Source: Bacteroidales bacterium (GTDB lineage: Bacteria > Bacteroidota > Bacteroidia > Bacteroidales > UBA932). From it: 64,000 nt of DNA. Made by a program: the position numbers and the translations under genes. Positions 47,420 through 50,433 of this stretch are shown here, piece after piece (positions within the stretch are counted from its first letter, which is position 1; each line of letters opens with the position of its first letter). Location: assembly GCA_017445755.1 (NCBI GenBank), contig JAFSSE010000036.1, positions 33,281 to 97,280 of the forward strand, written 5' to 3'. The notes below the pieces were generated by a model. The model did no database searches and had not been told where the DNA came from. It saw only the letters and a program-made list of their open reading frames with translations.

Positions 47420-48454
47420 ATGAAAATCGGGAACATCGAACTTGGAGAAAGGCCGCTATTCCTGGCGCCGATGGAGGACGTCACGGACGCGTCGTTCCGG
47501 GTGCTCTGCCGCGAGCAGGGCGCCGATATGGTATATACCGAGTTCATATCTTCTGACGGGCTGATCAGGGACGCCGCCAAAGCCATCGCGAAGATGAAAA
47601 CTTCCGACAGCGAAGCCCCCATCGGCATCCAGATTTACGGAAACCTCCCGGACGCCATGGTCGATGCCGCCAGGATGGCCGACCGCGCGGCGGAAATCGC
47701 CGGGGGCCATGGGGCCGACCTCGTGGACATCAATTTCGGCTGTCCCGTTTCGAAAATCGCCGGCAGGGGGGCCGGCAGCGGCATGATGAAGGATCCCGAC
47801 AAGATGGTTGCCATTACGAAGGCGGTCGTCGAGAGCGTCGGGAAACCGGTGACGGTAAAGACCCGGCTCGGATGGGACGACAACTCGAAAATCATAGTCG
47901 AACTCGCTGAGCGGCTCCAGGATGCGGGAATCAGCGCCCTGACCATCCATGGCCGCACCCGCTCCCAGATGTACAAGGGCGAAGCCGACTGGACGCTCAT
48001 CGGGGAGGTAAAAAACAACCCCCGCATGCACATCCCCATAATCGGGAACGGCGACGTCAATACCCCGGAAAAGGCGAAGGAGAGTTTCGACCGCTACGGC
48101 GTTGACGGCATAATGATCGGACGCGCCTCTTTCGGCCACCCGTGGATCTTCTCCGAAATCCGCCACTACCTCGATACCGGGGAGCTGCTCCCTCCGCTCG
48201 GAGTCCGCGAAAGGGTCTCCCTGGCAAAACGCCATCTCGGGCTATCTCTGGACCTGAAAGGCCCGGTCACCGGGGTCTATGAGATGCGGCGCCATCTGAG
48301 CTGCTATTTCAAGGGGCTCCCGGATTTCAAGGACACCCGGATCCGGCTCGTAACCGAAAAGGACCCGGAGGTCCTAATACAGATTCTGGACTATATCGCC
48401 GAGCGCTGGGGTGACACTCCGCTCGATAATCCCGCCGGCGTTTACGGGCTGTAG
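47420..48454 (+). CDS. dusB: tRNA-dihydrouridine synthase (DusB-like)
   Basis: 344 residues from the ATG at 47420; the longer frame overlaps the sulfatase start and a promoter-like site. FMN barrel motifs: LFLAPMEDVTDASFRVLCRE, NFGCPVSKIAGRGAGSGMMK with the catalytic Cys, TVKTRLGW, LTIHGRTRSQMYKGEADW, PIIGNGDV and DGIMIGRASFGHPWIF. It reduces uridines in the D-loop of tRNA. The B subtype is likely but not certain. Confidence 0.93.
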   Translation: MKIGNIELGERPLFLAPMEDVTDASFRVLCREQGADMVYTEFISSDGLIRDAAKAIAKMKTSDSEAPIGIQIYGNLPDAMVDAARMADRAAEIAGGHGADLVDINFGCPVSKIAGRGAGSGMMKDPDKMVAITKAVVESVGKPVTVKTRLGWDDNSKIIVELAERLQDAGISALTIHGRTRSQMYKGEADWTLIGEVKNNPRMHIPIIGNGDVNTPEKAKESFDRYGVDGIMIGRASFGHPWIFSEIRHYLDTGELLPPLGVRERVSLAKRHLGLSLDLKGPVTGVYEMRRHLSCYFKGLPDFKDTRIRLVTEKDPEVLIQILDYIAERWGDTPLDNPAGVYGL

Positions 48455-48461
48455 GGGCTGG

Positions 48462-48693
48462 GAAAAATTACCTGTATCACTTTCATCGCCTGTGCCACCC
48501 TCGGCATCATAAGAGGGAGGGGCCCAAAGAAAGTCGGCATCAGCCGACCGGCCGGGTCCGGGACTTTTGCCATCTGGCAAAAGTCGGAAAGGACAATAGG
48601 CCGCAGGGGGTTCGGGGGAATTTTATTCCCTCGTATAAAAGGGAGGGGTCGCCCGAAGGGCGACGGCAGGGAAAGTGATACAGGTAATTTTTC
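48462..48693. repeat. 232-base MITE-like or structured-RNA element with perfect 23-base terminal inverted repeats
   Basis: The ends 48462-48484 and 48671-48693 are exact reverse complements over 23 bases (core ATTACCTGTATCACTTTC). Five hairpins lie inside: 48498-48517 (CCCTC/GAGGG), 48533-48548 (GTCGGC/GCCGAC), 48562-48585 (perfect 10-base stem GACTTTTGCC/GGCAAAAGTC), 48627-48644 (TCCCT/AGGGA) and 48648-48664 (perfect 7-base stem GTCGCCC/GGGCGAC). No protein frame of note. It fills the gap between dus and the next promoter. No target duplication is obvious at the flanks. Confidence 0.75.
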
Positions 48694-48717
48694 TCCTTCG
48701 CTAAAACGGCCAGGATA

Positions 48718-48749
48718 TTTCGGGAATAGAAAATATATCGCTAACTTTG
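48718..48749 (+). promoter_or_regulatory. Promoter of the YidE/AspT-type transporter gene
   Basis: TTTC at 48718-48721, 20 bases, then TAACTTTG at 48742-48749; the ATG is 25 bases further. One mismatch in the -33 element. Confidence 0.6.
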
Positions 48750-48774
48750 CGCTGTATTATTAGCATTTCAGAAT

Positions 48775-50433
48775 ATGGAGCAGCTGTTTTTCGGCAACGG
48801 GATCGCCCATTCAATCCTTCTTTTCGCGGTAGTGATAGGGCTGGGGCTGTACCTTGGCCGCTTCAAGATAAAGGGAGTTTCCATCGGATCCACATGGATT
48901 CTGTTCGTGGGCATTCTCCTCAGCCATTTCGGACTTAGATGCAATCCGACCATCCTTTCCTTCATGAAGGATTTCGGACTCATTCTCTTCGTATTTTCCA
49001 TCGGTCTCCAGGTTGGACCGGGTTTCTTTTCTTCTTTCCGGAAAGGCGGAATCCAGCTCAACCTGCTCGCTACGGGACTTGTCGCGATGGCCGTTCTGGT
49101 GACGGTCGCGATTCATTTCATCTCCGGAGAAAGCATCTTTACGATGACCGGTGTCATGTCCGGAGCCGTTACCAATACGCCCGGTCTCGGCGCCGCCCAG
49201 CAGACGCTCTCTTCCGCAGCGACTGCCCCGGTAGATTCAACCCGCCTTGCCTCCGCCTATGCCGTCGCCTATCCTATCGGTGTTCTCGGTGTCATTGCCA
49301 TGATTATCCTCAGCCACTCCATCTTCAAGATTGATGACAAACGCGAAAGGGAGGAGCTGGAAAAGGAGCAGAACGCGGGCGACGGAGCAAGGAGGATGCA
49401 CTGCCAGGTCAGTAACCCGGCAATCTTCGGGAAGACCGTCAGGGAGGTCGTGTCCGACATGGGCGAGAATTTCGTTATCTCGCGGGTTCTCCACGACGGG
49501 GAACAGACCGTCCCGGGCCCCGACACAGTGTTCCATGAAGGCGATAAGGTCCTGATTGTCACAAGCGAGAATAACGTGGATACCATCCGGATTATTTTCG
49601 GAGAGGAGGTTCCCATGCACCAGAATGACTGGCTGAAGATGGATGAACACATGGTCACCCGCCGGCTCTCCATAACCAAGCGCTCCCTTACCGGGAAACG
49701 CCTCGCTGAACTCAGCTTACGGAGGGACCACAACGTTTCGGTCACGAGGGTCATCCGGGCGGGCGTCGAACTGGTCGCCTCTCCCCAGCTGATTCTCCAG
49801 ATGGGCGACGATATCCAGGTCGTCGGAGCGGAAAGAGACATTGACGACATCGCTAAAATCGTCGGAAACAAGCCCGAAAGTCTCTCCCACCCGAACCTCA
49901 TTCCGATTTTCTTCGGTATAGCCGTCGGTGTAATCTTCGGCAGCATTCCGATTGCTATTCCCGGTATCCCCCAGCCGATAAAACTGGGACTCGCCGGAGG
50001 GCCGCTCATCGTCGCAATCCTTCTCGGACACTTCGGCCCTAAGCTTAGAATCACGACCTACACGACCTCATCGGCGAACATGATGATTCGGGAAATCGGC
50101 ATATCCTTCTTTATGGCAGCCGTGGGTATCGATGCGGGTAAAACCTTCGTTTTGTCAATTACTTCCGGCGGTTACTGGTGGATTCTCTATGGCGCGCTGA
50201 TTACCCTTATCCCCGTTCTGACCATTATTCTCGTCTCGCGGCTGGTTTTCAAACGCAATTTCTACGAAATCTGCGGCCTGATTTCCGGAGGAACGACCGA
50301 CCCGGCAGTCCTCGCCTTCTGCCAGAACATGTACGGAACTGACTATACAAGCGTAAATTACGCCACCGTGTACCCCTTAAGCATGTTCCTCAGGGTACTG
50401 GCGGCGCAGCTTCTGATAGTATTCGCTCTTTAG
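48775..50433 (+). CDS. YidE/YbjL/AspT-family transporter with two RCK_C domains
   Basis: 552 residues. Two membrane halves of about five helices each (about 8-185 and 370-552) carry the duplicated AspT-Asp_Ala exchanger fold (VGILLSHFGLRCNPTILSFM, MSGAVTNTPGLGAAQQTL, and in the second half LISGGTTDPAVLAFCQNMYG). Between them lie two TrkA_C/RCK_C domains (about 205-285 and 290-365; QVSNPAIFGKTVREVVSDMG, TRRLSITKRSLTGKRLAELS). Family members exchange dicarboxylates or amino acids. Substrate unknown. Ends in a 4-base tail overlap with the regulator gene. Confidence 0.88.
   Translation: MEQLFFGNGIAHSILLFAVVIGLGLYLGRFKIKGVSIGSTWILFVGILLSHFGLRCNPTILSFMKDFGLILFVFSIGLQVGPGFFSSFRKGGIQLNLLATGLVAMAVLVTVAIHFISGESIFTMTGVMSGAVTNTPGLGAAQQTLSSAATAPVDSTRLASAYAVAYPIGVLGVIAMIILSHSIFKIDDKREREELEKEQNAGDGARRMHCQVSNPAIFGKTVREVVSDMGENFVISRVLHDGEQTVPGPDTVFHEGDKVLIVTSENNVDTIRIIFGEEVPMHQNDWLKMDEHMVTRRLSITKRSLTGKRLAELSLRRDHNVSVTRVIRAGVELVASPQLILQMGDDIQVVGAERDIDDIAKIVGNKPESLSHPNLIPIFFGIAVGVIFGSIPIAIPGIPQPIKLGLAGGPLIVAILLGHFGPKLRITTYTTSSANMMIREIGISFFMAAVGIDAGKTFVLSITSGGYWWILYGALITLIPVLTIILVSRLVFKRNFYEICGLISGGTTDPAVLAFCQNMYGTDYTSVNYATVYPLSMFLRVLAAQLLIVFAL

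Follow-up and report, generated by a model that had tools for sequence, protein, structure and literature searches.

The window analysed here is a 64,000 nt stretch of a Bacteroidales genome, and at 48462–48693 it carries a palindromic unit that lies between two genes. The stop codon of a Dus gene (PF01207, 283 bits) lies 7 nt upstream of the unit, and the ATG of a transporter gene (Asp-Al_Ex/TrkA_C; PF06826, PF02080) lies 81 nt downstream of it. The ends of the unit are inverted arms of 23 nt (48462–48484 and 48671–48693) that are 100% complementary and spaced 186 nt apart, exactly as an earlier note on this DNA had described them, and the distance to dus given there is likewise correct. The segment 48450–48705 has a predicted folding energy of −131.4 kcal/mol, compared with a mean of −87.5 kcal/mol (sd 4.8) for 200 shuffled sequences, none of which matched it (z −9.1), and the internal stems listed in the earlier note, including one of 10 bases, are present in the predicted fold. 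The proposal that the unit acts as a regulator or terminator found no support. Its position just after dus would suit a plain intergenic terminator, and a simple consensus scan of 48200–49000 reports two terminator-like sites on the minus strand (1.4 are expected), one of them a weak site inside the unit at 48549–48532. However, the same scan, which is blind to the long palindrome itself, reports none on the plus strand, from which dus is transcribed, and the element is absent from all 29 loci of relatives that were selected by the transporter gene and not by dus synteny. Given also the strength of the fold and the many copies with compensatory changes described below, it is hardly credible that the unit is just a terminator or a chance palindrome. 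The window copy is composite, lies between genes and gives no hint of a special role; the element landed just 3′ of dus, and any effect on the mRNA end is probably minor.

The ends and the fold of the proposed 232-base element stand, but it is not a single unit; it is a nested composite of two repeats, which we refer to as element A and module B. Element A is closed by the two arms (the 5′ and 3′ strands of P1), which in other copies are complementary with changed letters. Inside the left arm is the P2 hairpin (TGTGCC-ACCCTC-GGCATCA; 48491–48509), the loop of which (CCCTC; 48498–48502) is complementary to 48513–48517. This partner, a GAGGG that follows a TAA linker (48510–48517), is placed by alignment A1 and by the loop-tail counts given below, and the pairing would be of the pseudoknot type. 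The AGGGG motif and the CCC that come next (48518–48525, 5′ strand of P3) are invariant columns of alignment A1, and alignment of copies places GGG (the 3′ strand of P3) and AGGGG at 48641–48648 and the P4 hairpin TCGCCCGAAGGGCGAC at 48649–48664, all of these features being on the plus strand. Module B (48526–48640, plus strand) occupies the loop of P3. Five short copies in the same genome (118–121 nt) lack the ~115 nt that is module B in the window and read GGGGCCC-TTTA-GGGAGGGG at the place it takes in the long copies, and module B is dispersed in the genus, also without element A; the window unit is therefore a composite and not one element. The same A+B composite is present three times in this genome (in the window, C40 and C26). 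Module B is itself structured, with 24 pairs predicted on 16 copies and changes on both sides in 12 of the 24, and has no match in Rfam. We note that there are further module B loci, L029 among them; in a different genome the copy in L031 sits within an element A, other copies adjoin a tmRNA gene (L042) or sit between two tRNA genes (L030), and two copies (L032 and L036) seem, from an identification by eye, to lie within an aminotransferase-like gene.

The earlier description of the unit as MITE-like, in the sense of a dispersed palindrome without a gene of its own, is borne out by the many copies. The genome itself (2.18 Mb in 44 contigs, an estimated 83% complete) has nine further places, of which two are long (C40 and C26), five are short (C41, C34, two in C44, and C29) and two (C20 and C2) match in the core only and have quite different arms. 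Of 101 genomes sampled from the genus, a DNA query matches 64, and a covariance model, R1, built from 69 copies (alignment A1), finds the element at E≤0.001 in 84, with 1–39 matches each, these numbers being lower bounds with at most 42 candidates scored per genome. Across the order R1 finds it in five of 295 sampled genomes, which are the present one, G424 (from another genus of the same family), G326, G476 and G506. A pattern scan of named genomes returned at least 120 stretches, and among the matches listed each of the 80 records has Bacteroidales or Bacteroidia in its title, with many coming from ruminants. No match to the element was found in viral contigs (with the exact pattern) or in plasmids, and no Rfam family matches it, in agreement with the earlier view that no named element fits; nor did we find the family described in the literature covered on palindromic elements, MITEs, RAYT/REPIN and repeats in Bacteroidales or Bacteroidetes, with subscription journals mostly outside that coverage.

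Some copies of the element are arranged as neighbouring divergent pairs with about 40–100 bases between them (L242, L253, L259, L342 and L343), and L237, L242 and L256 in G476, which belongs to another family, have an additional hairpin-like sequence (CTCCATAAGTGGAG or similar) immediately beyond the left arm. A different small palindrome, like GTCATTCCCGG..CCGGGAATGAC, is present near position 2170 of L072 and near 1370 of L422, and resembles the CGTC-type REPs. Separately, a TruB-like gene region is ~97% identical between L073 and L136; over another 20 kb the best matches between the same two genomes are at 71–76%, a repeat excepted, which suggests that this stretch may have been transferred between genomes.

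The copies have a common core of the form NN-T-(N)-GCC-ACCCNC-GGC-..-NN-TAA-GNGGG-AGGGG-CCC-loop-GGG-AGGGG-P4, with the arms closing it. Two of the loop-tail pairs were left free by the search pattern, and these are complementary in all 251 distinct copies, in five combinations (TC/GA 230, GT/AC 16, GC/GC 2, AC/GT 2 and CC/GG 1). The outer dinucleotides of P2 are complementary in 223 of 225 copies and are of eight types. With one loop-tail pair free, the scan of named genomes gave complementarity in 122 of 122, just two being other than T/A, so it is the copies detected with the covariance model that supply most of the loop-tail variation. In alignment A1 95.7% of the cells are paired, compared with 75.6% in shuffles, and the covariation is 0.54 against 0.17 when shuffled, with rows that were chosen for having arms, such that P1 there is not independent. 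The loop-tail complementarity would close a pseudoknot on paper, and with a linker of 3 nt the pairing may be hard to form within one molecule. The suggested fold of the unit is backed by this strong covariation.

The arms are about 25 bp long, and their letters differ between most loci with the pairing kept. Among 189 distinct arms there is a degenerate positional pattern (purine-rich, T/A, pyrimidine-rich, GAAACC-like) that fades beyond ~25 nt, and for this reason the arms are most likely part of the element. Among 30 orthologous pairs of the same orientation there are 206 arm pairs with changes on both sides that preserve the pairing, against 51 that are one-sided or unpaired and 517 that are unchanged; these orthologous pairs overlap (five TrmB copies supply nine of them) and some may be separate insertions at one site, so the counts are a description and not a rate. 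An inverted target duplication, in which the arms are copied from the target, was suggested by the comparison of L174 and L278, and was dropped because the L278 stretch looks like the 3′ terminus of an element of that subfamily, so that it is more likely a deletion remnant, and because of the pattern common to the arms. The native gene in L061/L175 has almost neither arm, which also speaks against target-copied arms; L218/L106 fits one native arm, and L405/L422 has one arm in a site without the core, which may again be a remnant. Estimates of native arms in other pairs ran from below 0 to above 2 and were set aside.

The arms also bear on the possibility that this is an ordinary MITE, that is, a DDE insertion sequence reduced by internal deletion and moved by the parent transposase via its terminal inverted repeats. 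The element is short, multicopy and without a gene, it has terminal inverted repeats, and the arms are common to most copies in its own genome and to the G476 copies shown. However, the arms differ among the 18 copies of G594, where similar cores can have unrelated arms that still pair, and this is hardly what a fixed transposase site would look like. The conserved part is instead the inner core, and no direct target repeat is apparent by eye beside nine copies. We therefore regard this reading as unlikely.

Comparison of orthologous sites shows that the element can be inverted in place. One example is a site in G599 and G600 where, as read from the alignment, the whole element including its arms has the opposite orientation. 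Seven of 37 orthologous pairs are flipped, and a further, clear case is L402/L416, where 135 nt are 99% identical in the opposite direction and the flanks run in forward order. Paired arms would offer a simple route for such flips. Among the orthologous sites compared, there is no pristine empty site at high identity, the best candidate (L278 against L174) being the probable deletion remnant mentioned above, so the borders, the target, any target duplication and mobility at present are unproven, and it is from the dispersal that we take the element to be mobile today. A pre-existing palindrome as the target was considered at one empty site, at 74–76% identity.

Many copies are located inside genes. 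The coding frame of the flanks was called by codon usage for 207 copies, of which 16 are too near an edge; in 122 at least one flank does not code into the element, in 20 the flanks code on opposite strands and in 49 both code on the same strand. Of these 49, 46 are in frame and open, three (L040, L147 and L161) are frameshifted and none has an inner stop (p=6e-19 against an expectation of 1/3, with orthologues included). These figures replace a first ORF-continuity count over 300 nt (40 continuous, 12 in the same frame with a stop, and 21 frameshifted, strands apart), which mixed antisense frames. The hosts identified by protein models include DHFR, KsgA, RibF, YggS, TrmB, TruA, MtaB, YgiQ and RsmH (MraW family), together with an aminoacetone-oxidase-family protein and a PP-loop protein that appears TilS-like. 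One continuous match to the family model runs across the insert in MtaB (L160; model 51–480, insert 148–191), YgiQ (L059; model 32–630, insert 234–274), KsgA (L141), RsmH (L106), the PP-loop protein (L159) and RibF (L117); in further cases, among them TrmB L143 and KsgA L168, the model covers just one side. In G594, 13 of the 18 copies are in stop-to-stop frames of at least 285 codons, as judged by frames alone and not by family models. The present genome has one of its nine other copies wholly within a gene (DHFR), three that reach 3–18 nt into the end of a long frame and one that overlaps a short frame. Copies within genes would persist only if they leave the reading frame open and add a peptide that the protein can tolerate, and the affected proteins carry a foreign stretch of ~30–70 residues, which matters for their annotation.

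Two explanations at the level of RNA have to be weighed against these copies. Very strong covariation, with the loop-tail complementarity included, is also consistent with a structured RNA that acts in trans or in cis, as a small RNA or regulator, and is not mobile. Against this there are up to tens of copies per genome, they lie in unrelated host genes and in both orientations to them (26 and 20 of the 46 open copies), and the element is inverted between related genomes; we consider an immobile RNA very unlikely. A conserved fold within conserved genes, among them the DHFR, KsgA, RibF and TruA genes, could also point to an RNA that removes itself, in the manner of a ribozyme-like intron, or to a segment of translational bypass. 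However, keeping the frame without a stop would be needless if the segment were removed, and the occurrence of both orientations argues against it as well, such that this explanation is highly improbable.

Two enzyme families were searched as candidate movers, Y1_Tnp and RVT_1. At E≤0.001 the element and Y1_Tnp are both present in 74 of the 101 genomes, the element alone in 10, Y1_Tnp alone in four and neither in 13 (Fisher p=2e-7, kinship ignored), and in the 47 best genomes the corresponding numbers are 37, 3, 1 and 6 (p=5e-5, kinship likewise ignored). RVT_1 has no association with the element (p=0.40), and a reverse transcriptase was rejected as the mover on that basis. The Y1 association may reflect shared ancestry, and no element was found beside any of 11 Y1_Tnp genes (10 high-scoring genes of relatives with ~1.5 kb on each side, plus the one in the present genome), many more Y1 genes being present. 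We propose that Y1 transposases of the HUH, IS200/RAYT-like type would move the element in trans, recognising it in its folded, single-stranded form.

Taken with the copies, their fold and their positions, the window unit is probably a composite copy of a Bacteroidales family of non-autonomous mobile palindromic elements, with Y1 mobilisation as the putative route. A more specific version can be offered tentatively, in which these elements would form a distinct class of single-stranded DNA mobile elements with a fixed pseudoknotted core as the Y1 signal and arms that are free to vary as long as they pair, that flip in place and persist largely as in-frame inserts in housekeeping proteins, in most species of a large genus. 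The family is present in most of the sampled genomes of a Bacteroidales genus and provides dozens of natural in-frame insertions, its fold is amenable to covariation tests, and there is an enzyme to consider as a candidate; the in-frame entry of such elements into genes is open to direct test.

Several known systems are similar in some respects. MITEs such as Correia/NEMIS, ERIC and RUP are also short and dispersed, with terminal inverted repeats and no gene, but here the arm sequence is not common to most copies, the conserved part is internal and no target duplication is apparent by eye beside the nine copies compared. REP and REPIN sequences with RAYTs are likewise palindromic repeats in genomes with Y1 (IS200-like) transposases; the present element differs in having arms without the GTAG tag and a larger, multi-branch core, and in having many copies inside genes, and there is no REPtron-like arrangement, in that none of the 11 Y1 genes inspected has a copy next to it. 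Palindromes within protein-coding genes have so far been a curiosity of Rickettsia and a few others; they have reportedly been seen in Wolbachia, and repeats in Porphyromonas are said to be the subject of a published paper. The Rickettsia palindromic elements (RPEs) are described as dispersed palindromes of 105–146 bp with long predicted stem-loops, many of them in frame in conserved genes (PMC2229807, PMC10969869). RPE sequences are further described as ending in CGTC, and CGTC repeats are reported from Bacteroidetes among other phyla (PMC3733652). The CGTC-tagged REPs are thus small palindromes with one report in Bacteroidetes, whereas element A has no CGTC end, a comparison made by description and not by sequence. 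The absence of a CGTC end from its arms also sets element A apart from the RPEs, again by description. Rickettsia belongs to another phylum, and here there are a fixed core with loop-tail complementarity, paired arms that vary by locus, inversion and a nested second repeat. In common with the RPEs are the multicopy nature and the size, with short copies in this genome of similar length to RPEs (the window composite is 232 nt), and the in-frame insertion into genes, including the six proteins in which a model spans the insert. On the best reading, element A would work like the Rickettsia palindromic elements, with a distinct covarying core of its own.
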